A stretch of 64,000 bases of DNA, from assembly GCF_900112595.1 (NCBI RefSeq), contig NZ_FOMI01000003.1:372001-436000 (forward strand), in the 5' to 3' direction. The notes under the pieces are model-generated. The model saw only the letters and a list, made by a program, of their open reading frames with translations, was not told the DNA's origin and did no database searches. The translations under genes were made by a program, and so were the position numbers. The DNA is from Algibacter pectinivorans. Lineage in GTDB: Bacteria; Bacteroidota; Bacteroidia; Flavobacteriales; Flavobacteriaceae. Of the stretch, positions 10,150 through 61,097 are shown piece after piece (position 1 is the stretch's first letter; the number at the start of each line of letters is the position of its first letter).

Positions 10150-10181
10150 AATATAATATTAGTTTTTACAATTTACACCTA

Positions 10182-10719: not shown

Positions 10720-10745
10720 AATTTTATATATTAATTATTTTAATA

Positions 10746-10753
10746 CAAAGCTA
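10746..10753 (-). promoter_or_regulatory. Candidate -7 box TAGCTTTG for ybaB
   Basis: TAnnTTTG match 27 nt upstream of the ybaB start on the minus strand. Confidence 0.45.
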
Positions 10754-10764
10754 TTTAAATTTTC

Positions 10765-10772
10765 TATTTTTG
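10765..10772 (+). promoter_or_regulatory. Candidate -7 box TATTTTTG for the S9 peptidase
   Basis: TAnnTTTG match 34 nt before the TTG start. With the box at 10746-10753 it makes a compact divergent promoter pair. Confidence 0.45.
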
Positions 10773-10805
10773 GAAGCTTAAAATTTATGAATTAATACCA
10801 TTTAA

Positions 10806-38559: not shown

Positions 38560-38578
38560 CTATTTAAAAAACTGAGAA

Positions 38579-42080: not shown

Positions 42081-42102
42081 TTTTAGTATGAACATGTTAC
42101 TC

Positions 42103-43365: not shown

Positions 43366-43389
43366 TTTTTATACGTATAAGACTTTAAT

Positions 43390-44451
43390 TTATATAGTGT
43401 TTTTTTCTTCCCATCTATATTTTGGAAAAAAGTCGGGAGCAGTATCTTTAGTGAAGTTTCTATTGGAAACTAATGCGTTATAAACATCCTCATTAACTAT
43501 ATAAGTCCAAATTTTAAAAGGTCTATAATTTTTTGATAATGAGGACTTAAAATCAAACAAACTGTCTTGTTTATTGTTTAGGCCACCACCTAAGTTAAAG
43601 TAGGAATAATTAGCGTTATAGTAATCCAACCTAATTTTGTTAATTAAAGCTCTAAGTGGGGAGAGGTGCAAATAATTCTCATTCGTTCCGGATAAATGAT
43701 ATTGAATAATCTTATTTGTCCTGATTATTAAAGCAGCAGAAATAGTTTTGTTGGTTTCTTTATCCACAGCATAAACAATGTCTGTTTCAAATTCATTACT
43801 ATTAATGAAGCTTAAAAAATAGTCCTTACTAAAATAGTAACTCTTATGTGCGTTTAAGCGATCCATATTTTCATAATATAAATCTATAAAGGATTCTAGG
43901 TGAGCTAAATCGTTACTTTTTTTTATATCCAGATTTTTTTGGGCTTTCTTTAAATATCTTTTTGCTGTTTTAGAAAATGCTAATTCTTGTGTTTCATAGG
44001 ATTCTTTTAAATCAAAATATACTACGTTGCCAAGGGTTTTAATGGCGCCTAGGTTTTCAAGAATATCTTCTTGCTTATCTAAAAAGGGATGTAATCTACT
44101 AAAAACAGAAATTATTTTTTGCTTAACTAAGAATTCATTTAAATGTTTTTTATAATGGGTATTATCAAATTTAGTAGTCCAATTATTTCGTAGTGGACCA
44201 GCATATCCATAAACCGAAGTTGCATCATAAAATGTTGTTCCTTCAATAGGTCTTATAAGTAATGGTAAACAAATAATAATATCGTCTTGTATGTATTTTA
44301 TTAAAACAGCGGTTTCATTCTTTAATTTAGATGACTGGTGGTAATCATATGTGTGATAAAAGTCATAATGAGACACTTCAGCGAGGGTTTCTCGCCAAAG
44401 GTTCCTTTCATTTATTAAGGTTATACTTATATTTAAATTTTTAATTGTCAT
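43390..44451 (-). CDS. FemAB-like acyltransferase
   Basis: A 353-residue double-GNAT-fold protein of the FemAB/FemX type, which in Gram-positive bacteria adds amino acids from aminoacyl-tRNA to lipid-linked peptidoglycan precursors. The visible blocks are FYHTYDYHQ, SVYGYAGPL, FSRLHPFLDKQE, AKRYLKKAQKNLDIKKS, ISAALIIRTNKIIQYHLSGTNENYLHLSPLRAL and YFNLGGGLNNKQDSLFDFKSSLS. No coiled-coil (seryl-tRNA-like) arm was recognised. It aligns by eye with residues 543-890 of the fusion encoded next to it, so the two probably arose by duplication. Confidence 0.78.
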   Translation of the reverse strand: MTIKNLNISITLINERNLWRETLAEVSHYDFYHTYDYHQSSKLKNETAVLIKYIQDDIIICLPLLIRPIEGTTFYDATSVYGYAGPLRNNWTTKFDNTHYKKHLNEFLVKQKIISVFSRLHPFLDKQEDILENLGAIKTLGNVVYFDLKESYETQELAFSKTAKRYLKKAQKNLDIKKSNDLAHLESFIDLYYENMDRLNAHKSYYFSKDYFLSFINSNEFETDIVYAVDKETNKTISAALIIRTNKIIQYHLSGTNENYLHLSPLRALINKIRLDYYNANYSYFNLGGGLNNKQDSLFDFKSSLSKNYRPFKIWTYIVNEDVYNALVSNRNFTKDTAPDFFPKYRWEEKNTI

Positions 44452-44533: not shown

Positions 44534-47206
44534 TTATCTATTCATAAACCTGTAAAACGGAAAGAAATATTTCTTAACCTCATCTTTATGTGAATTATTG
44601 TAATCTTCATGTTTGTTTTTACATAGGTTTTCATAAACTTGGTAATTGTTTATTTTTCTTCCTGTGTAGAAAACTATATCATCATCCTTAGGAAAAAAGG
44701 CTTTCTTACTTTTATATAGACCATCGCCATCGCTTAAGCCTCCGCCTAATACATAATGTTTTAATTTATTTTTAATGGCCCATCTAATAATTTCAACACG
44801 TAAAAAATCATTAGGTCTATGGCTAAAGTAGTTAGCATCGGTACCTCCTAAAAAAGCAAATAATGTATCTTTATTTTTTATAATTAATTCTGCAGATATA
44901 GGCAGGCCATCAAAATAAGAAAAGGCCATAAGTATTTCAGATCTATGATTGGAAATTAACTCTTTAAAATATTGTAACGAAAAAAAGTATAATTCTTTTG
45001 CATTATTTCGTTTCATAGTGTCTGTATAGATATTATAAAACGTTTTAATTTCTTCTTGAGTTATTTCTTGTTCTTGCAGAATTTTAAAGGTTAGGTTATT
45101 TGTTACAGCCTTTCTATAGTTATTTCTAACCTTAGGAAGGAATTTTTCCCATTGTAGGTCGAAATCGGATTCTAATGTTCCTTTAACATTTAAAAGTGTT
45201 GAAATGAGTAGGCCAGAATAGCTAATGTAATTTCTGTTTAAGCTAAACCGAATAAACTCTGTAACCACATTCTTTTTTTCATACCAACTATCTATAGCTT
45301 TCCAAAAGGCTTGTAAATCGATGGAGTTAACTTGCTTGCCGTCGTATAAAGGACCATTGTAACCATATGGCGTTATAGTATCATAATATTCCTCTTGAGA
45401 GTCTTTTGAATCTATTTTCCTAAGTATTACGGGCATTATAATTTTAACCTCGCCGTTTATTTTAAATTGGAAGCATTTTAGGGTATCTGTCTCGCTAACA
45501 AAATATTTCAAATGATCGTATGAATAATATACGTTGTTATTCCAATTATTTTTAAGTAAGGTTTTGTAGCTTTCAATTTCTTCAGTACTGTTTAATTTTA
45601 CACTTAAAAAATCGTATTCTTTATTTAGGTTTTCTACTGGATATATGTCGTTATAAAGAATTTTAGATAAAACTTTAGATAACCATATTATTCTACCACA
45701 ATGCTCTACATGCCATACAGCACGGTTTTCAATAACATTACCGGCAAGCATTGGTCCCATAACATGAAGGTTCTTACTACTTTCCAATGCGTTATTTACA
45801 TGAAAACCTATATTAGATTGGTTTGGAACACAATATTTTTTTTGTAACAGGTTTTTGTAAAGTATTGGCAGGTCGTCATGTTTTAAATTTTTGCCGCCAA
45901 CACAATTTATAATAATATGATACGCTTTTTTAGCTGTTAAAGTTTTGCCCGATTTAGTATCTAAATAAGTTAAAAGGTAGTCACCGTTATTATCTTTTTC
46001 TAAGTCGCTAAATCTTCCAGCTATGTGCTCGAATCTATTTTCTCGTTCTAGCTTATCTATAACGTTTGTGTAATGTTGTCCAGCACAACGCTGTCTTTTT
46101 CCTATCGCGTTTCCATATTCGCAAGCAAATATTTCAAGCTCTTTTTCGTTTAAAGAATTTAACAACACGCCAAAGGCTTTCGAAATAATTTCAACCGTAG
46201 ATGCGGGACCTAAATTAATGTCATCAGCGAGGTCTAAATCTTTAAAAGTGGCCTCTGCAATAATTTGGGCTGTTAGTTTGTTACAGGTTTTTAAAGCCTC
46301 TAAATGTACAGGTTTAAATTGCTGTTGTTTTTCAAAATTTATAGTAGTATCAGGTATTCTGCCTTGCGTAGAAAGGAATGTAAAATTTGTATTATTAAAA
46401 TTCTTGTCTTTAAAATCGTTAATTTTATATATTAGCTCTAGTGCACTAGCATTAGCACCAATAATTAAAATATTTAATGTTTTATTGGTATTTACCCCAA
46501 TAAAATTTTGAATTTTATCAAGAGATACTTTTAGTTCTGGCTTATATGGGTTGTTTAAAAAAAGGAGGTTGTCTTGTTCAATTATTCTTTTATTTTTCCA
46601 CAGATAATTTGTTGGTAAAGAACCTACAGAAAGCACAACCTTTTTCGATTTTATATCATCCTTATTTTCTATTTTAATAGTGTACACACCGTTTACACGT
46701 TCAATATCAATTACTTTTCCATTGATTTTATTTAACTCTATTTTATTGGTTTTCCTAAGCTTTTCAGTTTTGGCTTTAATTAATTGATCCATATAACACC
46801 CAAAAAAACGCCTAGGAATAAATAAATCTTCCCATCTGTTATGTTTTATATCGTCATGGTTGTTAGTGAGCCAGTCTTGAGTTAAAGTTCCACCTTCATT
46901 TTTAAGTTCTTGTAGCAGCCAATTTTTATTACTATTTAACCAGGCAATGAATAAGCCTAATTCGGGCTCAATTAAAAAATTTCGTAATGACGTTATTAAA
47001 AGCGTTGAATATCCAGATCTTTCTCCGTAGGGTAGGCCTAAGTTAAATTCATGGTATTTCTCAATAATGTTTATAGAGATTTTTTTACCATTAGTTTCGT
47101 CATTATTAATGAGTTTTAAAAAATTTAGGATACTAAAGGAAGTTGATATACCCGATCCAATAAATGTTAAGTCTGTAATTTCTTTAGTACTGTCCACTTT
47201 AGTCAT
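44534..47206 (-). CDS. Fusion: FAD/NAD(P)-binding protein (PF13454-like) + FemAB-like acyltransferase
   Basis: 890 residues, two parts. Residues 1-540 resemble FAD/NAD(P)-binding proteins of the CreE/HpyO or lysine-N-hydroxylase type. They have a first dinucleotide loop FIGSGIST (17-21), the PF13454 block YSTLLITSLRNFLIEPELGLFIAWL...FIPRRFFGCYMDQL, a second loop LIIGANASALEL (near 250), INCVGG, and the closing NVIENRAVWHVEHC. Residues 543-890 are a FemAB-like domain: YYSYDHLKYF, TPYGYNGPLY, ISAELIIKNKDTLFAFLGGTDANYF, YVLGGGLSDGDGLYKSKKAFF. The frame is continuous with no sign of sequencing fusion. N-oxygenation plus N-acylation is one possible combined chemistry, but this is inference. The start overlaps the PglD-like gene by 8 nt. 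Confidence 0.8.
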   Translation of the reverse strand: MTKVDSTKEITDLTFIGSGISTSFSILNFLKLINNDETNGKKISINIIEKYHEFNLGLPYGERSGYSTLLITSLRNFLIEPELGLFIAWLNSNKNWLLQELKNEGGTLTQDWLTNNHDDIKHNRWEDLFIPRRFFGCYMDQLIKAKTEKLRKTNKIELNKINGKVIDIERVNGVYTIKIENKDDIKSKKVVLSVGSLPTNYLWKNKRIIEQDNLLFLNNPYKPELKVSLDKIQNFIGVNTNKTLNILIIGANASALELIYKINDFKDKNFNNTNFTFLSTQGRIPDTTINFEKQQQFKPVHLEALKTCNKLTAQIIAEATFKDLDLADDINLGPASTVEIISKAFGVLLNSLNEKELEIFACEYGNAIGKRQRCAGQHYTNVIDKLERENRFEHIAGRFSDLEKDNNGDYLLTYLDTKSGKTLTAKKAYHIIINCVGGKNLKHDDLPILYKNLLQKKYCVPNQSNIGFHVNNALESSKNLHVMGPMLAGNVIENRAVWHVEHCGRIIWLSKVLSKILYNDIYPVENLNKEYDFLSVKLNSTEEIESYKTLLKNNWNNNVYYSYDHLKYFVSETDTLKCFQFKINGEVKIIMPVILRKIDSKDSQEEYYDTITPYGYNGPLYDGKQVNSIDLQAFWKAIDSWYEKKNVVTEFIRFSLNRNYISYSGLLISTLLNVKGTLESDFDLQWEKFLPKVRNNYRKAVTNNLTFKILQEQEITQEEIKTFYNIYTDTMKRNNAKELYFFSLQYFKELISNHRSEILMAFSYFDGLPISAELIIKNKDTLFAFLGGTDANYFSHRPNDFLRVEIIRWAIKNKLKHYVLGGGLSDGDGLYKSKKAFFPKDDDIVFYTGRKINNYQVYENLCKNKHEDYNNSHKDEVKKYFFPFYRFMNR

Positions 47207-47846
47207 TATTATTAATTTTTAATACTCTTCCTGGGTTACCTACCATTGTAGCGTTTTCGGGAACATTTTTAATTATAACTGTACCAGCACCAATTAAACA
47301 ATTTGCGCCTATTTCTTTTACGCCAGTCATGACTGTTACACCCATTCCTATGTATGCGTTTTGTCTTACATTTATTAAGGCTCCAACATTTACTCCAGAG
47401 GACATAAAAACTCCATCTTCCATGTTGACATGATGAGCTATTGTACTATCCATATTAATCATAATATAGTTTCCAATTGTAGTATGTGGCATAACAATAT
47501 TTCCAGCAAGCATATACACTGCTTCGCCTAAGCTTACATCGGGTCCAATAGATACCGTTTTATGAATAAAACTTGGAATTTCATAACCTTCTTTTTTTAA
47601 AGTAGATAGATATTTTGAACGTATAATGTTATTTCCAATTGGGCAATAAACCTGTTGGATTTTATTTTTAAATTCTGAACTAAATAAATCTTTATATTGT
47701 CCTAACACAGGAATATTTATAACCTTTTTACCTATTAATTCTTTATCATCATCAATAAAACCAACTATATTAATTCCATCTTCTTTTAGGTAGGAAGCGT
47801 AAACTTGTCCTTGTGTGCCAGCACCTATTATAACTGCGTTTTTCAT
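47199..47846 (-). CDS. PglD/NeuD-like sugar O- or N-acetyltransferase
   Basis: 215 residues. The N-terminal PglD_N Rossmann-like part (MKNAVIIGAGTQGQVYASYLKEDGINIVGFIDDD) is followed by a left-handed beta-helix of hexapeptide repeats from about residue 95 (VSIGPDVSLGEAVYMLAGNIVMPHTTIGNYIMINMDSTIAHHVNMEDG). The His in AHHVNM is in the position of the PglD catalytic His. It probably acetylates an amino sugar nucleotide with acetyl-CoA. The 4-nt overlap with the PglC-like gene upstream matches the usual PglC-PglD pairing, but no aminotransferase or dehydratase partner is within the window. Confidence 0.85.
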   Translation of the reverse strand: MKNAVIIGAGTQGQVYASYLKEDGINIVGFIDDDKELIGKKVINIPVLGQYKDLFSSEFKNKIQQVYCPIGNNIIRSKYLSTLKKEGYEIPSFIHKTVSIGPDVSLGEAVYMLAGNIVMPHTTIGNYIMINMDSTIAHHVNMEDGVFMSSGVNVGALINVRQNAYIGMGVTVMTGVKEIGANCLIGAGTVIIKNVPENATMVGNPGRVLKINNND

Positions 47847-48481
47847 TGTACTTGTGTATTTCCTTTAAAAGCTTCCATATTTACTTTTCCACTGCTATTT
47901 ATATCTTCTTTTTTTATAACTTTTTTTATAGTCATTAAAATTATTTTGATGTCTGTTTTAAAACTTATATTTTGAACATACCAAACATCTAGTTTAAATT
48001 TTTCTTCCCATGAAATAGCATTTCTACCATTAACTTGTGCCCACCCTGTAACACCTGGTTTAATGGAGTGTCTTTTTCGTTGCTCTTTATTATATAATGG
48101 TAAATAACTAACAAGTAATGGTCTAGGGCCAATAATACTCATGTCTCCTTTAAGAACATTAATTAATTGTGGAATTTCGTCTAACGAATATTTTCTTATA
48201 AAAAGTCCAACATTAGTTACCCGATCTTTAAATGGAAGGAGCTCTCCATTTTCATCGGTATTATCATTCATTGTTTTAAACTTAATAATTTTAAATAGTT
48301 TTTCGTTTTTCCCAGGACGGTTTTGAAAGAAGAAAGGTTTCCCTTTATTAGCAAATAACAAGAAAATAAGTACAAATATAAAAATGGGAGATAAAAGGAT
48401 TAAAGCTATTAAAGCAATAATAATGTCTAAAATTTGTTTTAATACTAAATATGGGGTCATTTTTAACGATTTTTCTAACAT
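47843..48481 (-). CDS. Monotopic phosphoglycosyl transferase (PglC/WcaJ-C-like), copy A
   Basis: 212 residues. A re-entrant N-terminal hydrophobic segment (LDIIIALIALILLSPIFIFVLIFLL) precedes the catalytic domain: GKPFFFQNRPGKNEKLFKIIKFKTM, SLDEIPQLINVLKGDMSIIGPRP (Asp-Glu dyad) and KPGVTGWAQVNGRN. It transfers a sugar-1-phosphate to undecaprenyl phosphate to begin glycan assembly. It lies between the second copy (27 nt upstream) and the PglD-like gene. The likely substrate is a UDP-diacetamido- or acetamido-sugar, by analogy with PglC. Confidence 0.9.
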   Translation of the reverse strand: MLEKSLKMTPYLVLKQILDIIIALIALILLSPIFIFVLIFLLFANKGKPFFFQNRPGKNEKLFKIIKFKTMNDNTDENGELLPFKDRVTNVGLFIRKYSLDEIPQLINVLKGDMSIIGPRPLLVSYLPLYNKEQRKRHSIKPGVTGWAQVNGRNAISWEEKFKLDVWYVQNISFKTDIKIILMTIKKVIKKEDINSSGKVNMEAFKGNTQVQ

Positions 48482-48508: not shown

Positions 48509-49123
48509 TTATTGTTTTTGACGGATAACGTTTAAGTACGATTCAACATTAGTATTGTCAACCGCGACATCTTTAGAAGACAAAACTTTAAATACAGTTT
48601 TAACTAATATATTTAAATCTAACTTAAATGATAGATTATCAACATATTCTGCATCAAAATTTAATTTGGTATCCCAGTCTAAATTATTTCTGCCGTTTAC
48701 TTGAGCATAACCTGTAATACCAGGCTTAACAGTGTGCCTTTTTTGCTCATTTTTAGTGTAATAGGGTAGGTATTGTGGTAACAAAGGTCTTGGGCCAATT
48801 AAAGACATGTCGCCTTTAATGATATTAAATAATTGCGGCAATTCATCAATAGATGTTTTTCTAATTATTTTACCAATAGTTGTTAAACGATACGTGTCTG
48901 GAAGCAGATTACCATTAGCATCCTTTTTATCATTCATTGTTTTAAACTTTACTATTTTAAATAATCTTTCATTTTTACCAGGTCTTACTTGAAAAAAGAA
49001 AGGTTTACCTTGATTGGCAAAAAATAATAAAATAGTGGCTATAATTATTAGTGGTGAAAACAAAATTAAGGCTATCAATGCAACAAGGTAATCTAAAAAT
49101 GGCTTTATTATATTTTTGTACAT
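48509..49123 (-). CDS. Monotopic phosphoglycosyl transferase, copy B
   Basis: 204 residues, strongly similar to copy A along its whole length (LDYLVALIALILFSPLIIIATILLFF, KPFFFQVRPGKNERLFKIVKFKTMND, SIDELPQLFNIIKGDMSLIGPRPLLPQYLPYY, KPGITGYAQVNGRNN). The Asp-Glu dyad and the SLIGPRP helix are intact, so it is not a decayed duplicate. Two initiating transferases in tandem could start two different lipid-linked glycans, or one may serve another lipid. It is 5 nt downstream of the carrier-protein gene. Confidence 0.9.
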   Translation of the reverse strand: MYKNIIKPFLDYLVALIALILFSPLIIIATILLFFANQGKPFFFQVRPGKNERLFKIVKFKTMNDKKDANGNLLPDTYRLTTIGKIIRKTSIDELPQLFNIIKGDMSLIGPRPLLPQYLPYYTKNEQKRHTVKPGITGYAQVNGRNNLDWDTKLNFDAEYVDNLSFKLDLNILVKTVFKVLSSKDVAVDNTNVESYLNVIRQKQ

Positions 49124-49128
49124 ACCAG

Positions 49129-49371
49129 TTAATTCATTGTAGTTTTAATGGCCTGTAAAAGATCTCCAATATTATTCATATTCATTAAGTCCATTAACTT
49201 AAATTTTATATTAAACTCTTGTTCAATTTCATTAATTATCATCATGTGGGTTATAGATTCCCAGCCTTTTACATCGTTAGCGCTAGTGTCGTTATTTAAA
49301 ACAAAGTCTTCATGTTCTAATACTTTTACAAAGGCAGCTCTTACTTTTGTTTTTATTGTTTCTTCATTCAT
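49129..49371 (-). CDS. Acyl/peptidyl carrier protein
   Basis: An 80-residue four-helix carrier. Ser39 in VKGWESITHMMIINEIEQEF is the expected phosphopantetheine attachment site (D/E-S-I/L-x-x-M), and the following helix is acidic, as in carrier proteins of the DltC/ACP type. It lies between the adenylation enzyme (12 nt upstream) and the phosphoglycosyl transferases (5 nt downstream). The adenylating enzyme next to it would load it. The cargo may be an amino acid or another carboxylic acid. Confidence 0.88.
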   Translation of the reverse strand: MNEETIKTKVRAAFVKVLEHEDFVLNNDTSANDVKGWESITHMMIINEIEQEFNIKFKLMDLMNMNNIGDLLQAIKTTMN

Positions 49372-49383
49372 AATAGGTGTATG

Positions 49384-50880
49384 TTAGTTTTTTAAAAAAA
49401 AGGTTCTTAGTGCCTTTCTATCAATTTTTCCGTTTAAACTATGTGGAAACTCTTTAATAAAGCGAATATGCCTCGGAATCATATAATCGGGCATTTTACC
49501 TTTTAAATAATCAAAAATATAATCAGTTTCAAATGGGGCATCTTCAAAAGCTAATCCTAGTTCGGCGTTACCTAAATCGTTAGTAATATCAATTGCTACT
49601 ATGTTCGATTTCTTTTTAGAAATAGCTTTAGCGTGATATTCAATTTCAGCCAATTCCACTCTGTAGCCTCTTATTTTTACTTGAAAGTCTGCTCTTCCAG
49701 CATATAAAAAATCCCCGTCTTCATCCTTTAAACAAAGATCTCCGGTTTTGTAATAGCGTTCCGTTTTACCATTTTCCTTAATATTAAAAAAGCTAAGCGC
49801 ATTGCGCTCAGGATTTTTCCAATAGCCTGGTGTAATTTGTGGTCCCGATAAACATAATTCGCCCACCGTGTTTAAAGGCACTTCTTTATTATTTTCATCA
49901 ACAACTAAATACTTGGTGTTTTTTTGTGGAGTGCCAATGGCAATAATACCATTTAATGCCTTTGTGTGGGTGTGTTTATTATAAGGGTAAAAGCCACTAT
50001 ATACTGTAAACTCGGTTGGGCCGTAGTAGTTAAAAATTTTGCAATTTGGTAGGCAATTACTCCATTCTTCAGCAATATTGTTATGTAAAGCACCACCACC
50101 AAAGCTACAGTAACGCACATGTGGCGAGTTAATTTCTGCAAAATAAGGGCGCAAATAATTTAAAATAGAAGGCACCATAGTAAGCACACTTAACTTTTGT
50201 TCTTGTATCAGTTTAAATATATAAAAATACTTAATTGCATTTTTAGGAATAGTATAAATACAAGCTCCTGCTAAAAGTGGAAATAAATAAGTAACCACAG
50301 AAAAATCGAAGGTGAGCTCGAACATTTGTAAACAGCGGTCTGAAGCTAATAAATTAAAATCAGGTTCAGCATCTATAGCATCTACTAAACTATTTACGTT
50401 ATTAAAGGTTATAGGTACACCTTTTGGTTGGCCAGTAGTACCAGAAGTAAATAAAATATAAGCAATATCTTCTGGATTTACTTGTTTACATTCTAAATTT
50501 AGTTCTGTAAATTTTAACGATTTAGATGCTACCACATTATAATCGGAATAGATAGAATTCTGAGACGAGTCTATAACGGTGTTAGTTTCGGTAGCTTTAA
50601 AAATTTGAATATTACGCTCCACGGGGGTAGATGGGTTAACAGGAACGTAAGCTCTTCCTTCTAGCCATAAGGCTATAATACTGGCGTAGGTTTGTAAGTC
50701 ATCGTTAGTAACTAAACCTATAAGTTGCTCTGAAGGGTCTATATAATTTGCTATATGAAATCTAATTTTAGATATTTCTACAGCAAAGTCCTTATAGGTA
50801 TAAAATATATTGCCAATATAAAAAGCATGCTTGTTGGAATGCTTTAAAATAGATTGCTGTAAATTAACGATATACTCCAT
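49384..50880 (-). CDS. DltA-like AMP-forming acyl/amino-acid ligase
   Basis: 498 residues, the usual length of a stand-alone adenylation domain such as DltA. Core motifs: A3 YILFTSGTTGQPKGVP (141-156), YGPTE at 286-290, YKTGDL (A7), the hinge GRADFQVKIRGYRVEL and the C-terminal catalytic Lys in NGKIDRKAL. It activates a carboxylate with ATP and loads the carrier protein encoded 12 nt away. The block around residue 260 (CSFGGGAL) lacks the Cys-Gly-Glu that reads D-alanine in characterised DltA, so the substrate is probably not D-Ala. No condensation domain is present, so this is not a peptide synthetase. Confidence 0.88.
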   Translation of the reverse strand: MEYIVNLQQSILKHSNKHAFYIGNIFYTYKDFAVEISKIRFHIANYIDPSEQLIGLVTNDDLQTYASIIALWLEGRAYVPVNPSTPVERNIQIFKATETNTVIDSSQNSIYSDYNVVASKSLKFTELNLECKQVNPEDIAYILFTSGTTGQPKGVPITFNNVNSLVDAIDAEPDFNLLASDRCLQMFELTFDFSVVTYLFPLLAGACIYTIPKNAIKYFYIFKLIQEQKLSVLTMVPSILNYLRPYFAEINSPHVRYCSFGGGALHNNIAEEWSNCLPNCKIFNYYGPTEFTVYSGFYPYNKHTHTKALNGIIAIGTPQKNTKYLVVDENNKEVPLNTVGELCLSGPQITPGYWKNPERNALSFFNIKENGKTERYYKTGDLCLKDEDGDFLYAGRADFQVKIRGYRVELAEIEYHAKAISKKKSNIVAIDITNDLGNAELGLAFEDAPFETDYIFDYLKGKMPDYMIPRHIRFIKEFPHSLNGKIDRKALRTFFLKN

Positions 50881-50886
50881 ATTTTT

Positions 50887-51984
50887 TTAATAAAAATGAC
50901 CATCTCTATTATACAATGTTATGCCTTCATAATCAAAAATAGTATCGTTGTGTACAATACCTTTTTTGGTAACTTTATGAGTAAACACAGAAAAATAACG
51001 CTTATTTAAATTATCAGATAATTTAGTATCATCAGTAAAAATAAAATTGCGTTTAGATTTTAAAAGGTTTTCCATTAATACGTCTACACACACATCATAA
51101 TGCTTAAGGTCTTCAACTAAAAAGTATTTAACATTAAATTCATTATAATTTATTATGTATGATAAGAAGCCAATTATCGATTCGTTTTTCATAATTTTTA
51201 AATTATGAATATGAATATTATCACTTATACCAGGTTGTAAGTTTGTATATGGCTTTTTATGATTTAAAGGTATTTGGAGATATTGTGTATTGCTTAGTTG
51301 CCAATTTACATAATCTTTTGTTTTTAAAATTAGGTCGTTTTTACACAAAGGCTCAATAAAATGCCAAGTTGGATTATCCAATTCATTTATAAATTCGTAG
51401 GTTAAATGTGCTGTTCTCTTACCTAGTTTTAATTTATTTATAAAGCGAATCAGTTTTCCTGTTGTACCATCAATAATATCTAAAAGAAACTTCACGGGTT
51501 TTAAAAACTGAAATCGGCCTAAAAGCATAGAGCGATCTAAACTGTAAAATATGGTGTGTCTTAATCTCGATGTTATAACGCGAAAAGGACGTTTATCGTA
51601 AAAGTCCTGCACATTTTCCGTATAACTTTTTATTACCACTTGGTTTTGTACTAATTTAACAGCATAATCATATATGTACGTACCTAAAACTGTGGTTTTA
51701 TATTGTTTAGCCACCCACCAATCAATCATCCAATATACTTTTTTTAAAGGTTGACTTTGCATATTAATAACATCGGGGAACATGTAAATAAACGCTACCA
51801 TTTTATCCTTCTCCATGGCTAAAACTCCACAAAAATCTTCTTCCTCAATTCTGTTGTTAGCAATTAACCAAATAGCTTTACTTTTGGCCATTGGCGCTAA
51901 ACCAGATTTCCAAAATGTATTATTTTCAATATGCTCTCTTAACTTACTTTTAGTTAAGTTAACGATTTCTAAATCTTCACTCAT
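50887..51984 (-). CDS. GNAT-like protein of the glycan locus, unknown acceptor
   Basis: 365 residues, soluble. The first half has a GNAT-like layout (CGVLAMEKDKMVAFIYMFPDV, VYWMIDWWVAKQYKTTVLGTYIYDYAVK, where the segment TVLGTY replaces the usual acetyl-CoA pyrophosphate loop). The second half may be another GNAT-like fold (NESIIGFLSYIINYNEFNVKYFLVE). It is 6 nt upstream of the adenylation gene, so it is expressed in the same order and likely uses the carrier-bound product. I recognise no named family beyond this. An approximately 200-nt gap separates it from the upstream SGNH gene. Confidence 0.6.
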   Translation of the reverse strand: MSEDLEIVNLTKSKLREHIENNTFWKSGLAPMAKSKAIWLIANNRIEEEDFCGVLAMEKDKMVAFIYMFPDVINMQSQPLKKVYWMIDWWVAKQYKTTVLGTYIYDYAVKLVQNQVVIKSYTENVQDFYDKRPFRVITSRLRHTIFYSLDRSMLLGRFQFLKPVKFLLDIIDGTTGKLIRFINKLKLGKRTAHLTYEFINELDNPTWHFIEPLCKNDLILKTKDYVNWQLSNTQYLQIPLNHKKPYTNLQPGISDNIHIHNLKIMKNESIIGFLSYIINYNEFNVKYFLVEDLKHYDVCVDVLMENLLKSKRNFIFTDDTKLSDNLNKRYFSVFTHKVTKKGIVHNDTIFDYEGITLYNRDGHFY

Positions 51985-52153
51985 TGGTTTTGTTATACGT
52001 GTTGGTATTTAGTAAAAGCAACAATCTCATTCAAATATATAATTATATGATTAGCAATTGGTGTTCATTTATATATTTACGTTATTCATTACTTTTTTTT
52101 CGATAAGAGGTTCATAAATTAAAGTTGTCTTATAAATAAAGTAACACTTATGT

Positions 52154-52174
52154 GTGTTGTAAGAAAAACAACAC
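52154..52174. terminator. Weak hairpin downstream of the SGNH gene
   Basis: A 7-bp stem GTGTTGT / ACAACAC with a 7-nt loop, about 14 nt beyond the stop at 52188. It lacks a T-run, so termination is doubtful. Confidence 0.3.
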
Positions 52175-52187
52175 TCAGAAAATTACA

Positions 52188-53126
52188 TTAATCAAGATGC
52201 TTATTTATAATTTTAACCAAATTATTATTAAATAGGGTAGCACCTTTATCGTTTAAGTGCGAAGGGTCCCAAAACAGGTCTAGTTTATTAATATAATCTG
52301 GTTTGTTAAGGTAATTATAAAACGGTATACCTTCTGCTTTAGCTATTGCTTGTATAGTTGTAAAGGATTCATTTTTAGATAAGTCGCGCTCAATAAGTTT
52401 AGGCGAGCTAACAAATATTAATTTAACATTGTGCTTTTTAGTTTCGCTAATAAAATCTTTAAGTAATTGCACAAAAATTGGTTCTATTTGCTCGGTGTAA
52501 ATTTTTTTTGGTGGATGTTGGGTATAAGACACCAATTTTTCTGGAGTCATTTCTTCTTTTAAAGGTCTATATCCTTTTTGTGCTATTTGTGGAGCAAACT
52601 TATATTTTAAGACATGAACAATTGTAGAATTATATTGGTATGCCTTAAATAAAAGCTTAAGGTCTTTATATTTAGATTTTAACTTTAAAAATGGGTTTAA
52701 AGTTGCTTTATTATCACCATAATAAGGATGTAAGTCACTAAGTCTACTAAAGGCTATATCCGATTTAAAAAGGAACTCTTCATCTATATTAAAAACAATT
52801 AATTCTGGTCTATGCCTTTTTAACAGCATTTTTTGAAGCGCCGTATGGTAAATAAGTTGTTGTCCTTCTGCACCGGCATTGTAGCAAGTTTTTCCGGTGC
52901 TTTTTTCAATTATAGAAGGTTTGTAGTGTCTAATAGCATGCGAACTCCCAATAACCATAATAGCGTCTTTAGATTGGTTTATTACGTACGATGATCGCGC
53001 AAATTTTCCCGTTTCTTGACTTAAAAATAGTTTTTTAGCTACTATACCAAAACAAAAATCTATAACTAGAATAACTACAGCAAATTTTAATATTAATAAG
53101 GTAACACGTTTTATTTCAGTTGTCAT
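52188..53126 (-). CDS. Membrane-anchored SGNH-like protein partner of MBOAT 2 (DltD/AlgJ-like)
   Basis: 312 residues. One N-terminal helix (VTLLILKFAVVILVIDFCFGI) is followed by a periplasmic SGNH domain: block I MVIGSSHAIRHYKP (nucleophile Ser), an Asn in CYNAGAEGQQ, and block V DPSHLNDKGATLF. It starts 5 nt after the stop of the MBOAT gene at 53132, the same order as in algI-algJ and dltB-dltD. The GSSHA and NAGAEGQQ pattern resembles the third SGNH protein of the window (GSSRA, NMGADGRK) more than the first one. Confidence 0.8.
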   Translation of the reverse strand: MTTEIKRVTLLILKFAVVILVIDFCFGIVAKKLFLSQETGKFARSSYVINQSKDAIMVIGSSHAIRHYKPSIIEKSTGKTCYNAGAEGQQLIYHTALQKMLLKRHRPELIVFNIDEEFLFKSDIAFSRLSDLHPYYGDNKATLNPFLKLKSKYKDLKLLFKAYQYNSTIVHVLKYKFAPQIAQKGYRPLKEEMTPEKLVSYTQHPPKKIYTEQIEPIFVQLLKDFISETKKHNVKLIFVSSPKLIERDLSKNESFTTIQAIAKAEGIPFYNYLNKPDYINKLDLFWDPSHLNDKGATLFNNNLVKIINKHLD

Positions 53127-53131
53127 AATTA

Positions 53132-54541
53132 TTAAAATTGAAAATATATAAATTGACTATTACCAAATACACCCAAATAAAAAATTATAAAAACAATAAT
53201 ACCGTACCTTAAATGTGTAGCTGTAGCCTTTAAATATTTAGGAAGCACTAGGTAGTTATTAAAAAACTCTCTTTTTAGTTCGCTTAAAACAAGTATAAAA
53301 ATGGCTATTACAGTATAAACAGGAGCCGTAATATCATCTCTTCCACCAATATATGGAATTCCAAAATTGGTAAACATATCTTTAAAAATTAGTACAGCTT
53401 CACTTAAAGAATTGGCCCTAAAAAACACCCAGGTTAAATTTATAAGTACAAAGGTGAGCGCTATATTAATAAGCCCCGACCTTTTCTTTTTAAAAATTAA
53501 AGTTTCGGCAATTAAATAAAGGCCATTAATAGCGCCCCAAATAACAAAGGTCCAATTAGCACCATGCCATAAACCACTTATTAAAAATGTTATAAATAAA
53601 TTAAATAAATAACGTCCTTTTTTAGATTTATTTCCTCCCAATGGAATGTACACATAATCTTTAAACCAGGTAGATAAACTTATGTGCCAACGTTTCCAGA
53701 ACTCGCCAACCGATGCCGCAAAATAAGGTCGATTAAAATTTACCATTAATTCTAAACCAAATAATTTAGCAATACCAATAGCTATTAAAGAGTAGCCCGC
53801 AAAATCACCATAAATTTGAAAAGCAAAGAAAACTGTGGCCACCATAAACGTTATACCATCATGGTTTTCTACATTATTATAAACAGCATCTACATAAATA
53901 GCCGCTCTATCGGCCACGACTAATTTTAAAAAGAAGCCCCAAATTATAAGTTTAACGCCCGAGGCTATCTTACGTTTTGTAAAAACTCTAGATGTTAATA
54001 TTTGAGGTAATAAATTAGACGCTCTTTCAATAGGACCCGCTACCAACTGCGGAAAAAACGAAACAAATGCGGCAAAACTTATAAAATTAGTTGTAGGTTT
54101 TAGTTTGCCTCTTTTAATATCAATAGAGTAGGATAGCGTTTGAAACGTATAAAACGAAATTCCTACAGGAAGTATAATATTTAAAGTCCAGCTGTTTTGC
54201 ACTGTGTAACCAAGCAGACTTAAGGATTCTATCCAAGAATTCACAAAAAAATTATAATATTTAAAAAAGCCTAAAAGTCCCAAGTTAAAAATAATGCTTG
54301 CAAGCATCCATTTTTTCTTAGTAGCTGTTTCTTTAGAGTTATAAATTTGTATTCCTACAAAATAATCGACAATAGTACTTGTAGCAATTAACATTAAAAA
54401 CCGGTAATCCCACCACCCATAAAACACATAACTACTAACTAATAAAATTACATTTTGTAATTTTAAATTTCTTTGAGCTACCCAATATAAAAGAAGTACT
54501 AAGGGTAAAAACAGAAAAAATATGGCAGAATTAAATAACAT
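53132..54541 (-). CDS. MBOAT-family O-acyltransferase (AlgI/DltB-like), cassette 2
   Basis: 469 residues, polytopic. The conserved stretches are SYVFYGWWDYRFLMLI, SFYTFQTLSYSIDIKRGKLKPT, FVSFFPQLVAGPIERASNLL, YGDFAGYSLIAIGIAKLFGLE, FWKRWHISLSTWFKDYVYIPLGG and LISGLWHGANWTFVIWG with the catalytic His; the C-terminus is QFIYFQF. Its ATG directly abuts the stop of the glycosyltransferase gene. Together with the adenylation enzyme and carrier protein it completes the four part types of a dlt operon, although the order differs and a gap interrupts the set. Confidence 0.92.
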   Translation of the reverse strand: MLFNSAIFFLFLPLVLLLYWVAQRNLKLQNVILLVSSYVFYGWWDYRFLMLIATSTIVDYFVGIQIYNSKETATKKKWMLASIIFNLGLLGFFKYYNFFVNSWIESLSLLGYTVQNSWTLNIILPVGISFYTFQTLSYSIDIKRGKLKPTTNFISFAAFVSFFPQLVAGPIERASNLLPQILTSRVFTKRKIASGVKLIIWGFFLKLVVADRAAIYVDAVYNNVENHDGITFMVATVFFAFQIYGDFAGYSLIAIGIAKLFGLELMVNFNRPYFAASVGEFWKRWHISLSTWFKDYVYIPLGGNKSKKGRYLFNLFITFLISGLWHGANWTFVIWGAINGLYLIAETLIFKKKRSGLINIALTFVLINLTWVFFRANSLSEAVLIFKDMFTNFGIPYIGGRDDITAPVYTVIAIFILVLSELKREFFNNYLVLPKYLKATATHLRYGIIVFIIFYLGVFGNSQFIYFQF

Positions 54542-56186: not shown

Positions 56187-58160
56187 ATGAAGATTACAAT
56201 TAAAAACATTGCTTTGGCAATGGCAACGGTGGTTACTTTAACATCTTGCAACAACGAAGAGTTATTTGTAGACCAAATCGTTACCGAAGAGCTAGTAGAA
56301 ACCGATAACATTAAAGAAGAAGTAGAAGACCCAGTAGTAGACCCAACTGCGCCTTGTGCCTTTAGTTTAAGTAGTGCTACAGCAAACTCAACAGTTGTAA
56401 TAGATTGCATACTAGATTTGGATGGACAAACAATTACCTTGCCAAGCAGTGTATATCTTAGTTATGCTGGTGGCGATATTATTAATGGCACAATTAATTT
56501 TGGTGCCAGTAACACCATTGATGGCGAACTTTTAAACTACACATTAAACGTAAAAGGGCAAACTCCAAAACTTACCAAACCAGAATTCAATTTTTTACCA
56601 GAACGTTGGGATATTGTTGAGGGCGAAACCACTTCTGATATTGCTTGGGATAACAATAAAAATTTAGAATTTACCATGTCTTTAATTAAAGAATTAGGGG
56701 CAACAACATTTAAAATGGATGTAATAGATGCTTATTTTGAAGGATCTCGTAATGCACCAGGGACAAATTTTTACCCTTCAGTAGAAGCTGTAAATATTCC
56801 TTCAGACTTTAATTTAGTAATGACAGACAATACTCATTTAAGAATCCAACCTGCCACTGCTCAATCAGAAAGATTAGAAAATGGAGCCATTTTTGCCATT
56901 CGAGATGCGGATAATATTACTGTTACTGGAGGGAATTTGCACGGAGATAGAAAGGTTAGATATTTTTCTCCCGATAATAATGGTTTAGAAGGAGCTCATT
57001 TATTTTATATAGAATCTGGGCGTAATGTTATATTAGATGGGATTAAGTTTATTGATGGCTCTAAAGGAGGTTTAAACATCTATTCTTTAGGAGCCACTTT
57101 TGAAGCATGGTACAACCCTAGTAGATATATAAAAGTTTTAAACTGCGAGTTTACCAATATACGAAGAATGGCAGTTGCATTAACTGATGGGCGTGATATA
57201 CTTTTTGAAGGAAACACCTTTACAAATACTGGTCAACCAGGACCAAATTCCACTGGTGGAGAGGTTGGTTATGCCATGAATATGGAGGCAACTAGAGTAC
57301 GTGACGCTAACGGAATATTAGTTGAACGTGAAAAAGTAACAGATATAATAATACGTGGAAATAAAGAAACAGGAAGTAGAGGAGGTTCCATTTCTGTGCA
57401 TATTGGTCAAAATGTAACTATTGAAGATAATGATTTTGAAACAACAGTAACATATGCTTATACCAATGGGACCAAAATTATTAATAATAGATTTAAAGGT
57501 TTAGGAGCATCGAAATCTGACTATGCAATATTTGCTACTGGTGATGGTGATACGGTTTATAATAATGAAATTTATGGTAATACCATTGAGGATTATAATA
57601 TTGGTATGATTTTAAGTTCTGCTTATATTGAAGTTCATAGTAATGTGATTTCTGGAGTAACTTCAGGTATTTTGTTAGGAAAATCGACTAATTCTAATAT
57701 TTATAATAATAATGTTACTGCAAATACTTTTGGTATCATTGTAGGTAATACGTGGCTAAACAATGTGGAAATAAAAGGGAATACCCTATCTGCAGGATTT
57801 TTAAACATGAAATTTTCTAATAGTAATAATAAACCAGAGCATGCTAATTATACCTTTTCTGTTACCGATAATATTTGTAAAACAGACAAAAAAATAGATT
57901 TTTTGCAGGTTAATGGAGTTAATTTTTCCAATAATGAAGTTGCTGGTATTCAAATAGCAAACTCAACAAATTTGACAATTTCTAATAATACAATAAAACC
58001 AACAGATTTTGATGGCATTCGTTTATACGACGATCATGACAATGTATCACTTATAAACAATACTATTTATGAACCTACAGGTGCTTCTAGATTTCAATGT
58101 ATAAATAACGGCTCGGAGAGTCAAGATGAAATTATTGAGAAAGGGAATACTTGTAATTAA
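56187..58160 (+). CDS. Right-handed parallel beta-helix lipoprotein
   Basis: 657 residues. A lipoprotein signal (IALAMATVVTLTSC, Cys21) is followed by an acidic linker (about 25-55). A pectate-lyase-like parallel beta-helix spans about 175-655, with repeated units such as LIRGNK-, IEDNDFE, IINNRFKG, IYGNTIEDYN, VHSNVISG, IYNNNVTANTF and VEIKGNTLS. Asn ladders at unit ends are clear. The fold hosts polysaccharide lyases, C5-epimerases and hydrolases; the catalytic residues cannot be placed here. It is next to the glycan locus, so processing or binding of the exported glycan is likely. It is a single-gene unit with its own terminator. Confidence 0.82.
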   Translation: MKITIKNIALAMATVVTLTSCNNEELFVDQIVTEELVETDNIKEEVEDPVVDPTAPCAFSLSSATANSTVVIDCILDLDGQTITLPSSVYLSYAGGDIINGTINFGASNTIDGELLNYTLNVKGQTPKLTKPEFNFLPERWDIVEGETTSDIAWDNNKNLEFTMSLIKELGATTFKMDVIDAYFEGSRNAPGTNFYPSVEAVNIPSDFNLVMTDNTHLRIQPATAQSERLENGAIFAIRDADNITVTGGNLHGDRKVRYFSPDNNGLEGAHLFYIESGRNVILDGIKFIDGSKGGLNIYSLGATFEAWYNPSRYIKVLNCEFTNIRRMAVALTDGRDILFEGNTFTNTGQPGPNSTGGEVGYAMNMEATRVRDANGILVEREKVTDIIIRGNKETGSRGGSISVHIGQNVTIEDNDFETTVTYAYTNGTKIINNRFKGLGASKSDYAIFATGDGDTVYNNEIYGNTIEDYNIGMILSSAYIEVHSNVISGVTSGILLGKSTNSNIYNNNVTANTFGIIVGNTWLNNVEIKGNTLSAGFLNMKFSNSNNKPEHANYTFSVTDNICKTDKKIDFLQVNGVNFSNNEVAGIQIANSTNLTISNNTIKPTDFDGIRLYDDHDNVSLINNTIYEPTGASRFQCINNGSESQDEIIEKGNTCN

Positions 58161-58739: not shown

Positions 58740-60158
58740 ATGTTATTTAATTCATTCGAATTTTTAATTTTTTTTCCAATCGTTTTTACTATCTATTGGG
58801 TTTTAAACAAAGATTTAACAAAACAAAATTTATTATTATTATTATCCAGTTACATTTTTTACGCTTGGTGGGATTGGAGGTTTTTATCCTTAATAATAAT
58901 TAGTTCGTTTATTGATTTTCGAGCCGGGATTAAAATATTTGCATCTAAAACTAAAAGGGAAAGAAAAAAATGGTTAATTGTGAGTTTAGTTGCTAATTTA
59001 GGTTTCTTATCCATTTTTAAATATTATAATTTCTTCGCAGAATCCTTTTCAGATTTAATGAATCGTTTTGGTTGGCAACCAAATGATTTAACTCTAAATA
59101 TAATCTTACCTGTAGGTATTAGTTTTTATACCTTTCAGACTTTAAGTTACTCTATCGATATTTATAGAAAACAATTTAAACCAACTTATAATGTTGTGTC
59201 ATTCTTCACTTATGTGTCTTTTTTCCCGCAGTTAGTTGCGGGTCCTATTGAGCGGGCTTCCAATTTATTACCACAGATAGAGAAAAAGAGGATTTTTAAA
59301 AAAGAATGGTTCAATGCAGGAGTTATTCAAATACTTATAGGCTTGTTTCGTAAAATTGTTATTGCAGATAATATTGCTGGATACGTTGATACAATTTATG
59401 CAGATGTAAGTTTATATAATTCATCAACTATTCTTTTGGCAACAGTTTTATATGCTTTTCAAATTTATTTCGATTTTGCTGGCTATTCTGACATAGCTAT
59501 TGGTACTGCTAAATTATTAGGGTTTAAATTTAATCAAAACTTTAATTTACCTTATTTTTCTAAATCGCTTACGGAGTTTTGGAGAAAATGGCACATATCT
59601 TTATCTTTTTGGTTAAGAGATTATTTATATATTTCTTTAGGTGGAAACAGAAAAGGAATAAAGATAACGTATAGAAACTTAATGTTAACTATGTTACTAG
59701 GAGGTCTTTGGCATGGAGCCAATTGGACTTTTCTTTTTTGGGGAGGTATTCATGGCGTTGTTTTAAGTTTAGAGAAATTTTTAAAATCTATTCGGTTTTC
59801 TAATAAATTTAAAACAGTTGATTTTCTTGGTTACCCTTTAACATTTGGGATTGTAATATTTTCATGGATATTTTTTAGGTCACAGGATTTAAACTCAGCT
59901 TTTGTTGCTATTAAAAAAATTTTTCAATTTAATTTTTCTGCCCCATTTATTGGAGATATAAATTTGATAACAAATTCTATATTAGTTTTATCCATTGGTT
60001 TAATTTTTGATTTATACCTTTTCAATAAAAACTTAAGTTTAGAAAACTTAGGAGCTAAGTTCAGTTTATTAAAAATTGTAATTGTATCCTGTATTGTAAT
60101 AATGCTAATTAATCTTTTTTATTCTTCTTCAAATAATTTTATTTATTTTCAATTTTAA
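58740..60158 (+). CDS. MBOAT-family O-acyltransferase (AlgI-like), cassette 3
   Basis: 472 residues. The same blocks as cassettes 1 and 2 are present: SYIFYAWWDWRFLSLI, SFYTFQTLSYSIDIYRKQFKPT, YVSFFPQLVAGPIERASNLL, YFDFAGYSDIAIGTAKLLGF, FWRKWHISLSFWLRDYLYISLGG and LLGGLWHGANWTFLFWG, ending NNFIYFQF. A notable difference is the residue string DFRAGIKIF after the second helix where the others have DYF-V/I-GI. It has the best promoter in the glycan locus and forms a two-gene unit with the following SGNH gene (3-nt gap). Confidence 0.92.
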   Translation: MLFNSFEFLIFFPIVFTIYWVLNKDLTKQNLLLLLSSYIFYAWWDWRFLSLIIISSFIDFRAGIKIFASKTKRERKKWLIVSLVANLGFLSIFKYYNFFAESFSDLMNRFGWQPNDLTLNIILPVGISFYTFQTLSYSIDIYRKQFKPTYNVVSFFTYVSFFPQLVAGPIERASNLLPQIEKKRIFKKEWFNAGVIQILIGLFRKIVIADNIAGYVDTIYADVSLYNSSTILLATVLYAFQIYFDFAGYSDIAIGTAKLLGFKFNQNFNLPYFSKSLTEFWRKWHISLSFWLRDYLYISLGGNRKGIKITYRNLMLTMLLGGLWHGANWTFLFWGGIHGVVLSLEKFLKSIRFSNKFKTVDFLGYPLTFGIVIFSWIFFRSQDLNSAFVAIKKIFQFNFSAPFIGDINLITNSILVLSIGLIFDLYLFNKNLSLENLGAKFSLLKIVIVSCIVIMLINLFYSSSNNFIYFQF

Positions 60159-60161
60159 ATT

Positions 60162-61097
60162 ATGAATCTAAAGAACATAGAATACATAGTTAAAACAATT
60201 ACGTTAGTTTTAATTTTTACATATTTAACGGATAAAGTTGTTTTTTTTTCATTAAACAAAATAAGTGATAAGGTATTTACAGGCCAAAGTATTGGTAAAT
60301 TAAATCATTATATAGTTTTAAAAGACAGTTTAGATTTTGTTGTTTTTGGCAGTTCAAGGGCAAATCGAAATTTAAATCCTGAAATAATATCAAAAAACAG
60401 TTTTAATATGGGGGCAGATGGTCGGAAATTATCTTTTGCCGCTACTTTGATTAAAATATTACCAAGAAAAAAGGAACAAACCGTACTTTTACATATAGAT
60501 CCAGAAAAAGCTTACTTAAAAAACTATAAAGGTGATGATATTCAGGTTTTAGGTACTAAATATCATAGAAATCCACTTATTAAAAATGAAATTGATAAAC
60601 TTGAACAAGCAGACCGTTTTCAGAAATTTTATTGGAGTTTAGGATACAATAGAACAGTACTTGGAATAATTAAAAATTACTTACACCCAAATTACAACTA
60701 TAAAAACTACTCAGGTTTTGATCCTATTTTTGTCACTGAAAATCAAAAAAATATTTTTAAAAATATTTTAAAAAATGAAGCATCTGTAAAATGCGAAAAT
60801 GTTTTTGTAATTAATGAAATTTATAAAAATTATTTAAGTGAACTTAAATTATTTTGCGACCAAAATAACAAAAAATTAATTTTATTTACCTCTCCAAAAT
60901 ATAATGATCAATGTAAAGAAGATAATTTAAAATTTAGTCAAACAATGGAAAATATGGGGTTGACATATCTGGACATGACAGATTATTTTAAAAAAAATAA
61001 CTTATTTGAATATTGGAAAGATAAAATCCATTTGTCAAACTATGGAGCTGAAATTTTTACGGAGGAGTTTAAGCAGTTATTAATTGAAATTAAATAA
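60162..61097 (+). CDS. Membrane-anchored SGNH-like protein partner of MBOAT 3
   Basis: 311 residues with an N-terminal helix (YIVKTITLVLIFTYLTDKVVFF) and a periplasmic SGNH-like domain. Block I is FVVFGSSRANRNLNPEI (Ser in GSS), the NMGADGRKLSFA stretch follows, and KDKIHLSNYGAEIFTEEF gives the Asp-x-x-His of block V. The overall pattern matches the partner of cassette 2. It lies 3 nt after the MBOAT gene. The end of this unit has no obvious terminator before the convergent CapK-like gene. Confidence 0.78.
   Translation: MNLKNIEYIVKTITLVLIFTYLTDKVVFFSLNKISDKVFTGQSIGKLNHYIVLKDSLDFVVFGSSRANRNLNPEIISKNSFNMGADGRKLSFAATLIKILPRKKEQTVLLHIDPEKAYLKNYKGDDIQVLGTKYHRNPLIKNEIDKLEQADRFQKFYWSLGYNRTVLGIIKNYLHPNYNYKNYSGFDPIFVTENQKNIFKNILKNEASVKCENVFVINEIYKNYLSELKLFCDQNNKKLILFTSPKYNDQCKEDNLKFSQTMENMGLTYLDMTDYFKKNNLFEYWKDKIHLSNYGAEIFTEEFKQLLIEIK

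Follow-up and report, generated by a model that had tools for sequence, protein, structure and literature searches.

A 64,000-nucleotide stretch of the Algibacter pectinivorans genome (contig NZ_FOMI01000003.1, positions 372,001 to 436,000; hereafter the window) carries, on its minus strand, three contiguous genes encoding a GNAT-like protein that we call GNX, a stand-alone adenylating ligase and a carrier protein. The cassette adds a new form to carrier-dependent envelope acylation: it probably attaches an amino acid to a sugar, and it resembles the alanylation of teichoic acids in its first half only. An earlier note on this DNA had grouped the ligase and the carrier with a neighbouring MBOAT gene and a neighbouring SGNH gene into a Dlt-like set, GNX lying between them. 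All five reading frames are indeed open on the minus strand (Table 1). On present evidence, the Dlt-like proposal is half right: the loading half is like DltA-DltC, and the transfer half is GNX. We give a probability of about 0.57 to the reading in which GNX, ligase and carrier aminoacylate an amino sugar, the MBOAT-SGNH pair being separate.

The GNX-ligase-carrier unit and its conservation

A similarity search with the ligase as only query gave 51 loci. In 50 of them the ligase gene is immediately preceded by GNX and immediately followed by the carrier gene, including two loci (L003 and L015) that were judged from coordinates and have the same gene order. Only L049 departs from this order: a different GNAT separates its ligase from its carrier, and an MBOAT and an SGNH gene follow. 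Among 299 genomes of the family, 16 carry GNX, 17 carry the ligase (E up to 1e-90) and 16 carry both (Fisher test, 1.3e-25; 6e-8 within the 32 genomes carrying any tested marker), the two genes being side by side, by their coordinates, in 14 of these 16. The ligase genome devoid of GNX (G119) has a distant ligase, scoring 345 bits. A draw of 395 genomes across the phylum contains GNX in three, two of them Flavobacteriaceae, one of which is the source genome. As these genome searches score just the best few candidates per genome, some copies could have been missed. The working unit is GNX-ligase-carrier, both by gene order and by co-occurrence. No paper on a ligase-carrier-two-GNAT cassette, judged by title and start of abstract, is found among the matches listed in the openly licensed literature.

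The spacing of the genes in the window follows the same division. The minus-strand order is MBOAT, SGNH, GNX, ligase, carrier, two PglC-like genes and a NeuD/PglD-family gene, and a 203-bp gap separates MBOAT-SGNH (5 bp apart) from GNX-ligase-carrier (spacings of 6 and 12 bp). A sigma-70 scan finds about as many matches in the region as chance would give (47 observed for 39.9 expected, standard deviation 7.6). A single TAnnTTTG string lies inside the gap, which is a weak observation. The source genome (3.65 Mb) has one close copy of the ligase.

Some loci behave as natural experiments. In Mariniflexile (L031), the triad stands among genes that are unlike those of the locus and that, from their first residues, we take to be housekeeping genes, and the syntenic glycan locus of the same genome (L114, 19.5 kb) contains two PglC genes, a FemAB-like gene and an MBOAT-SGNH pair, and no triad. 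In Spongiivirga (L045), the GNX-ligase pair is doubled, with one pair for each of the two ligase classes described below, and each GNX falls in the clade of its ligase class. The GNX tree, for which 27 of 61 sequences were used after thinning near copies of class A, splits into the same two classes as the ligase with one exception, L043; in this tree, the joining of L045_8895 and L095 is marked as a case of two long branches coming together.

Ligase class, predicted GNX fold and candidate acceptor

By its sequence and fold matches, the ligase is placed in the amino-acid adenylating class. It scores 305.1 bits with the AA-adenyl-dom model, slightly below the cut-off of 317.4, and its Foldseek matches include THR1 (6.4e-43), DltA and AlmE, the latter through structure 4oxi with glycyl-AMP. 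D192 and K485, placed by motif and which we take to be the equivalents of Asp235 and Lys517, are kept in 67 of 67 ligases. A fatty-acid ligase is thought unlikely, because the best models are those of amino-acid adenylation and because D192 is kept. The best sequence match is module 2 of LgrA, the specificity of which we take to be glycine; this is a hint, and not a proof, that the substrate might be a small amino acid. Read through the LgrA alignment at motif positions that we take from GrsA, the pocket spells DFVSSGYVYK, ten letters that to our knowledge match no well-known specificity code. The carrier has, as the earlier note had pointed out, its phosphopantetheine serine, Ser39, which is invariant across 14 aligned carriers.

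The pocket letters of the 67 ligases group by partner gene. Class A comprises 53 ligases adjoining GNX, 49 of which have DFVSSGYVYK, and class B comprises seven, also adjoining GNX, with DAT-type letters; the ligases of four loci (L091, L092, L093 and L095), beside carrier-MBOAT-SGNH, read DL[VM]SLCVI[YF]K. The earlier note had also remarked that CSFGGGAL replaces the Cys-Gly-Glu region, which we take from DltA, and this replacement is found at residues 258-265, where the four ligases beside carrier-MBOAT-SGNH read [SN]LFCGEAL. Cys-Gly-Glu (FCGEAL) is thus present in all four of these ligases and in none of the 60 GNX-adjacent ones (FGGGAL or FAGGAL in class A, FGG[GE]KL in class B). Two ligases depart from this rule: that of L049 (ligase-GNAT-carrier-MBOAT-SGNH) is MBOAT-linked and devoid of Cys-Gly-Glu, and that of L094, with neither GNX nor MBOAT within its stretch, has it. 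As ligases adjoining GNX lack these letters and ligases adjoining carrier-MBOAT-SGNH have them, CSFGGGAL would largely mark the wiring of the ligase.

GNX reaches the cut-off of no family model. A weak Acetyltransf_1 match (E 0.011) is its sole Pfam match at E 10, FemAB included in the search, and the one hit of a profile search against PDB sequences is at chance level (E 0.63). Its AlphaFold model, made with 33 sequences (predicted local distance difference test score, pLDDT, 89.3), nevertheless bears out the GNAT-like assignment of the earlier note, with two halves, each showing the strand order of a GNAT-like fold, and a long helical hairpin that connects them. The closest fold to this predicted model is that of N-myristoyltransferase (NMT), with a top Z of 19.4 and a root mean square deviation (rmsd) of 3.8 over 295 aligned residues. 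The best 50 structural matches are all NMTs (Z 18.3-19.4, rmsd 3.6-5.0, 282-303 residues), a result that says nothing on FemX or other two-GNAT families; Eis- and VipF-type GNATs rank lower among the Foldseek matches. The NMT alignments run to residues 362-365 of the GNX model and reach the last NMT residues, 455 in S. cerevisiae and 451 in C. albicans.

Of all these observations, the fixed length of the GNX C-terminus is the most interesting one. Sixty-one of 63 copies end in D-G-x-[FY]-X, that is, Asp-Gly plus exactly three residues, the two others being distant relatives (L105 and L106). The very last residue varies (Y, A, F, S, V or I), so that the C-terminal position is kept and its side chain is free. 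In NMT, the acceptor of which is glycine, the base is proposed to be the carboxylate of the C-terminus, and this role is described as unique to NMT within the GNAT superfamily (PMC4964394).

Neighbouring genes suggest that the candidate acceptor is a free amine carried by a sugar, in view of the PglC/PglD/formyltransferase context and of deacetylase neighbours. Sets of PglC/PglD-like and formyltransferase genes are typical of 4-amino sugar nucleotides; a PglC-like gene is found in 49 of the 51 ligase loci, and formyltransferases adjoin the triad in L037 and L096. Two distant GNX relatives, L106 (21%; L106:7923-10045) and L115 (18%; L115:8934-11005), adjoin polysaccharide deacetylases outside any evident glycan locus, and a deacetylase, a ligase, a GNAT and a carrier stand together in L104. 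By analogy, in Flavobacterium psychrophilum an acyl group borne by an acyl carrier protein is predicted to be moved onto UDP-Qui2NAc4NH2 by a PglD homologue (PMC6519341).

The product could also be a lipid, a peptide or a small metabolite rather than a glycan substituent. The triad of L031 does stand outside the glycan locus, the distant relatives L106 and L115 outside any evident one, and an NMT-like fold can hold a lipid. We nevertheless consider such a product very unlikely in view of the frequency of the PglC-like gene in ligase loci and of the deacetylases beside GNX in these same two relatives.

The MBOAT-SGNH pair and the surrounding locus

By its motif, by its position in a tree and by an approximately unbiased (AU) test, the window MBOAT is of a carrier-less type. 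Among 79 full MBOATs from 69 sources, seven have a carrier gene directly before them, with a ligase as loader in four, FkbH in two and a ligase plus a GNAT in one; none of the 18 MBOATs of the window type adjoins a carrier gene. A quick tree without bootstrap, using 47 of the 79 sequences after thinning copies of the 37108 type, joins six of the seven carrier-linked MBOATs in one clade (SH-like approximate likelihood ratio support 97) and places the window MBOAT in another group (98). The AU test, run after the tree had been seen and with groups defined by gene order, rejects the grouping of the window MBOAT with these six (p-AU 1.9e-13); membership of the L049 MBOAT, which has a very long branch, is not rejected (p-AU 0.07). 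PLGG is found in 71 of 72 carrier-less MBOATs (SLGG in the remaining one) and in none of the seven carrier-linked ones, which have PL[AS] and a downstream Arg instead. This segment aligns with the DltC-binding helix of DltB, residues of which are named in PMC11035591.

All 79 MBOATs have FIYF[QK]F at their C-terminus. In PatA, a C-terminal FxYxxF acyl-tyrosine motif has been shown, with acetyl-CoA as donor, and the PatA/PatB O-acetylation system shares with the window pair both this motif and an SGNH partner (PMC12148441). By analogy, the window pair would most simply be an O-acetyltransferase, with a donor that we infer. Two other MBOAT-SGNH pairs lie in the window besides that at 52188-54541, at 37108-39541 and 58740-61097, and all three MBOATs end in FIYFQF.

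The SGNH protein has no Pfam match even at E 10; its residues G60-S61-S62-H63, N83, D287 and H290 are invariant in 13 aligned sequences. Twenty of the 51 ligase loci include a whole window-type SGNH gene in their stretch, never adjoining GNX as in the window (the nearest is 757 bp away, with a PglC-like gene between). Among the 299 genomes, ten have it at E 1e-20, nine with the ligase and one (G253) without. The earlier note had held that its model would fail if ligase and carrier were found without an MBOAT/SGNH pair, and this is largely the case: ten of the 17 ligase genomes are without a strong window-type SGNH, and 13 of 60 stretches with GNX and ligase are without a full MBOAT, which in at least L099 and L103 is cut off by the end of the stretch.

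The nearest relative, Algibacter amylolyticus (L034), shares with the window 82% identity in GNX, 74% in the ligase, 88% in a FAD protein of the locus and 89% in PglC. Its window-type MBOAT is cut to the first 27 residues and its SGNH to the last 101, and its GNX, ligase and carrier are all whole, which is suggestive. The pocket letters of its ligase (10001-11500) have diverged to DFASCGGVYK, and the stretch contains two other carrier-less-type MBOAT genes, one partly visible, so that the case is not clean.

The gene set put forward in the earlier note does exist elsewhere. Ligase-carrier-MBOAT-SGNH sets are found in four family genomes (L091, L092, L093 and L095), with another ligase subtype, whereas it is GNX, and not MBOAT/SGNH, that stands beside the window-type ligase. 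In the source genome itself, 3.4-7.7 kb past the window end (L107:3372-7698; G000:C10:439372-443698), FkbH, carrier, MBOAT and SGNH genes follow each other on one strand; this FkbH scores 305.8 bits (cut-off 146.65), and the MBOAT is devoid of PLGG. Such a loader would presumably make a glyceryl-type thioester. An FkbH-type set is also found in tandem with the ligase-carrier-MBOAT-SGNH set of L092. FkbH occurs in eight of the 299 genomes, in seven over the cut-off; of the six in which its neighbourhood was judged (G079, with a 4-kb contig, and G292 being left out), carrier-MBOAT-SGNH follows it in the source genome and G070 and not in G258, G157, G248 and G019.

A Dlt operon in the strict sense is rejected, the models being far below their cut-offs. 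The ligase reaches 267.5 of 476 bits with the DltA model NF003417 and 259.1 of 559.85 with TIGR01734; the window MBOAT reaches 152.9 of 375 bits with the DltB model TIGR04091, for which the carrier-linked L092 MBOAT also falls short (181.6). No DltC model is among the carrier matches at E 0.001, and SGNH has no DltD (PF04914) match at E 10. DltA models exceed their cut-off in none of 21 genomes, source included, and in two of 14 control genomes.

In a looser Dlt-like scheme, the carrier would hand its cargo to the MBOAT at 53132, which would pass it across the membrane to SGNH and then to a glycan hydroxyl, with a side role for GNX. This scheme draws on the four ligase-carrier-MBOAT-SGNH sets, on L049 with its GNAT between ligase and carrier, on the C-terminal motif common to all 79 MBOATs and on the SGNH distribution weighed below. 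We hold it to be quite improbable, considering the missing carrier gene beside window-type MBOATs, PLGG at the DltC-binding-helix segment, the AU test, the ligase without the Cys-Gly-Glu of the four MBOAT-linked ligases, and the L034 losses. Apart from the SGNH nesting weighed below, loader, carrier, MBOAT and SGNH do not behave as one inherited unit; GNX is the constant partner. The claim of a carrier-dependent acyl or aminoacyl transfer within a glycan locus, with a pocket unlike that of DltA, is supported, and MBOAT/SGNH as its downstream, receiving half is not supported, this MBOAT being of the carrier-less type and GNX being contiguous with ligase and carrier.

Table 1. Features of the cassette, of the adjoining pair and of their context (window positions).
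Feature	Position	Strand	Evidence or reading
MBOAT, carrier-less type (PLGGN, C-terminal FIYFQF)	53132..54541	-	PF03062, 106.8 bits
SGNH protein, partner of MBOAT	52188..53126	-	invariant residues; read as part of a separate O-acylation module
GNX (GNAT-like protein), 365 aa, ends DGHFY	50887..51984	-	predicted two-GNAT transferase, NMT-like fold; proposed acceptor transferase
Stand-alone amino-acid adenylating ligase (putative), 498 aa, pocket letters DFVSSGYVYK	49384..50880	-	AMP-binding, 194.4 bits
Carrier protein, 80 aa, phosphopantetheine site Ser39	49129..49371	-	PP-binding, 32.2 bits (cut-off 20.8)
PglC-like sugar transferase, 5 bp past carrier gene (context)	48509..49123	-	PF02397, 205.3 bits
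Second PglC-like sugar transferase (context)	47843..48481	-	PF02397, 213.8 bits
NeuD/PglD-family sugar N-acetyltransferase (context)	47199..47846	-	TIGR03570, 174.6 bits (above cut-off 160.8)

Other genes of the window are of interest in their own right. A FAD-NAD(P)-binding domain is fused to a FemAB-like GNAT at 44534-47206; in L001 and in many further Aquimarina loci each part has its own gene, and in L102 and L103 they form one open frame of 1231-1236 aa. FemAB/GNAT paralogues stand in series at 40890-44451 and in L048 (six of them), L099, L102 and L103, as if each added a different residue. A PaaK-like adenylating enzyme lies within the glycan locus at 61226-62623, below the cut-offs of all seven NCBIfam models matched, and a right-handed beta-helix protein is encoded on the opposite strand at 56187-58160, with a relative in 35 of the 51 ligase loci.

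Proposed mechanism and comparison with known systems

The substrate, donor, acceptor and order of steps that we infer are as follows. The ligase would adenylate a small or medium alpha-amino acid and load it on the phosphopantetheine of the carrier. GNX, with its predicted two-GNAT, NMT-like architecture, would take the aminoacyl group from the carrier thioester and transfer it in the cytoplasm to the amino group of an amino-sugar precursor, the base probably being the carboxylate at the C-terminus of GNX. The acceptor would most likely be a UDP-4-amino-2,4,6-trideoxy sugar of the PglC/PglD kind or, alternatively, a deacetylated sugar. The MBOAT-SGNH pair beside the triad would be a separate, outer O-acylation module, probably fed by acetyl-CoA and acting on the same glycan.

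Several points weigh against this reading. All seven genomes with a strong window-type SGNH (at least 425 bits) also have GNX and ligase, and this nesting has a p of 0.008 within the 32 marker-bearing genomes, compared with 6e-8 for GNX-ligase. Shared locus type alone does not explain it, as the FAD protein, a marker of the locus found in 22 genomes, is without the ligase in 14 of them. Since a strong SGNH is confined to genomes with GNX and ligase, the MBOAT might work together with the carrier; we read the nesting as an MBOAT-SGNH module working on the same glycan, and it is possible that this module is fed in trans by the same carrier. As for GNX, it has no NMT Pfam match at E 10 and only 7-12% identity to NMT, so that the likeness lies in the fold alone, and the last five residues of its model have a pLDDT of about 64; the placement of the C-terminus is thus weak, the tail being among the least certain parts of the model. 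In G224 the match to GNX scores a weak 68 bits and does not share a contig with the ligase of that genome, L043 pairs a class A ligase with a GNX of the B clade, and L105, a third distant GNX relative, has no deacetylase beside it. L095 has GNX and carrier without an adjacent ligase; the single ligase found in its genome at E 1e-90 lies 6 kb off, in the ligase-carrier-MBOAT-SGNH set.

Finally, GNX might instead use acyl-CoA to acylate the amino group of the carrier-bound amino acid, as NMT does with glycine, after which PglD, a FemAB-like protein or an MBOAT would move the N-acyl-amino acid. The predicted fold, together with glycine being the NMT acceptor, is compatible with this order of events, as are the GNATs of another kind between ligase and carrier in L049 and L104, the MBOAT-SGNH of L049 being a possible last step. 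However, no third enzyme is constant with the triad, which stands alone in L031 and has varied neighbours in the class B loci L096-L100, and in none of the four plain MBOAT-linked ligase sets does a GNX gene interrupt the series. We therefore find N-acylation by GNX unlikely and retain aminoacyl transfer to an amino sugar as the preferred reading.

The cassette can be compared with several known systems. Like Dlt of Gram-positives (DltA, DltC, DltB, DltD and DltX), it would use an amino-acid-class adenylating ligase to load a stand-alone carrier, but here the constant partner is a soluble-looking two-GNAT protein, the MBOAT is of the carrier-less type, and both Cys-Gly-Glu and scores near the Dlt cut-offs are missing. 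AlmE-AlmF-AlmG, responsible for lipopolysaccharide glycinylation in Vibrio cholerae, similarly combines a ligase, a carrier and a dedicated transferase in a Gram-negative; AlmG has an LPLAT domain (PMC3783018), whereas the constant partner here is GNAT-like and the proposed acceptor is an amino sugar. The R-group genes wfpC-G of the F. psychrophilum O-polysaccharide also place a carrier in a flavobacterial glycan locus, with acyl transfer predicted onto a 4-amino sugar nucleotide, but in that system enzymes like those of type II fatty acid synthesis would build the acyl chain and a PglD homologue would move it, in place of a ligase and GNX (PMC6519341). FemABX proteins, like the predicted GNX model, have two GNAT domains and serve aminoacyl transfer in envelope building (PMC4964394), but they use aminoacyl-tRNA, and GNX is without a FemAB match. 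Eukaryotic NMT shares the two-GNAT fold and the conserved C-terminal end with the predicted GNX model, and differs in its CoA donor, that proposed for GNX being a carrier protein.

We tentatively suggest, as a bolder proposal that is rather less probable than the reading above, that GNX represents a hitherto unseen bacterial family of NMT-like enzymes, in which the carboxylate of the C-terminus serves to transfer amino acids from aminoacyl carrier proteins to amino sugars. This would be a third wiring beside Dlt (MBOAT) and Alm (LPLAT), in a cassette exchanged between flavobacterial surface-glycan loci. Dlt-like sets with two kinds of loader, adenylating ligase or FkbH, also occur in part of these genomes, so that flavobacteria offer a natural comparison of the MBOAT features that go with carrier feeding. 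If the proposal is true, the cassette would be a soluble bacterial route feeding amino acids activated in the manner of nonribosomal peptide synthetases into surface glycans, and the odd carboxylate chemistry of NMT would be extended to prokaryotes and to carrier-protein donors.

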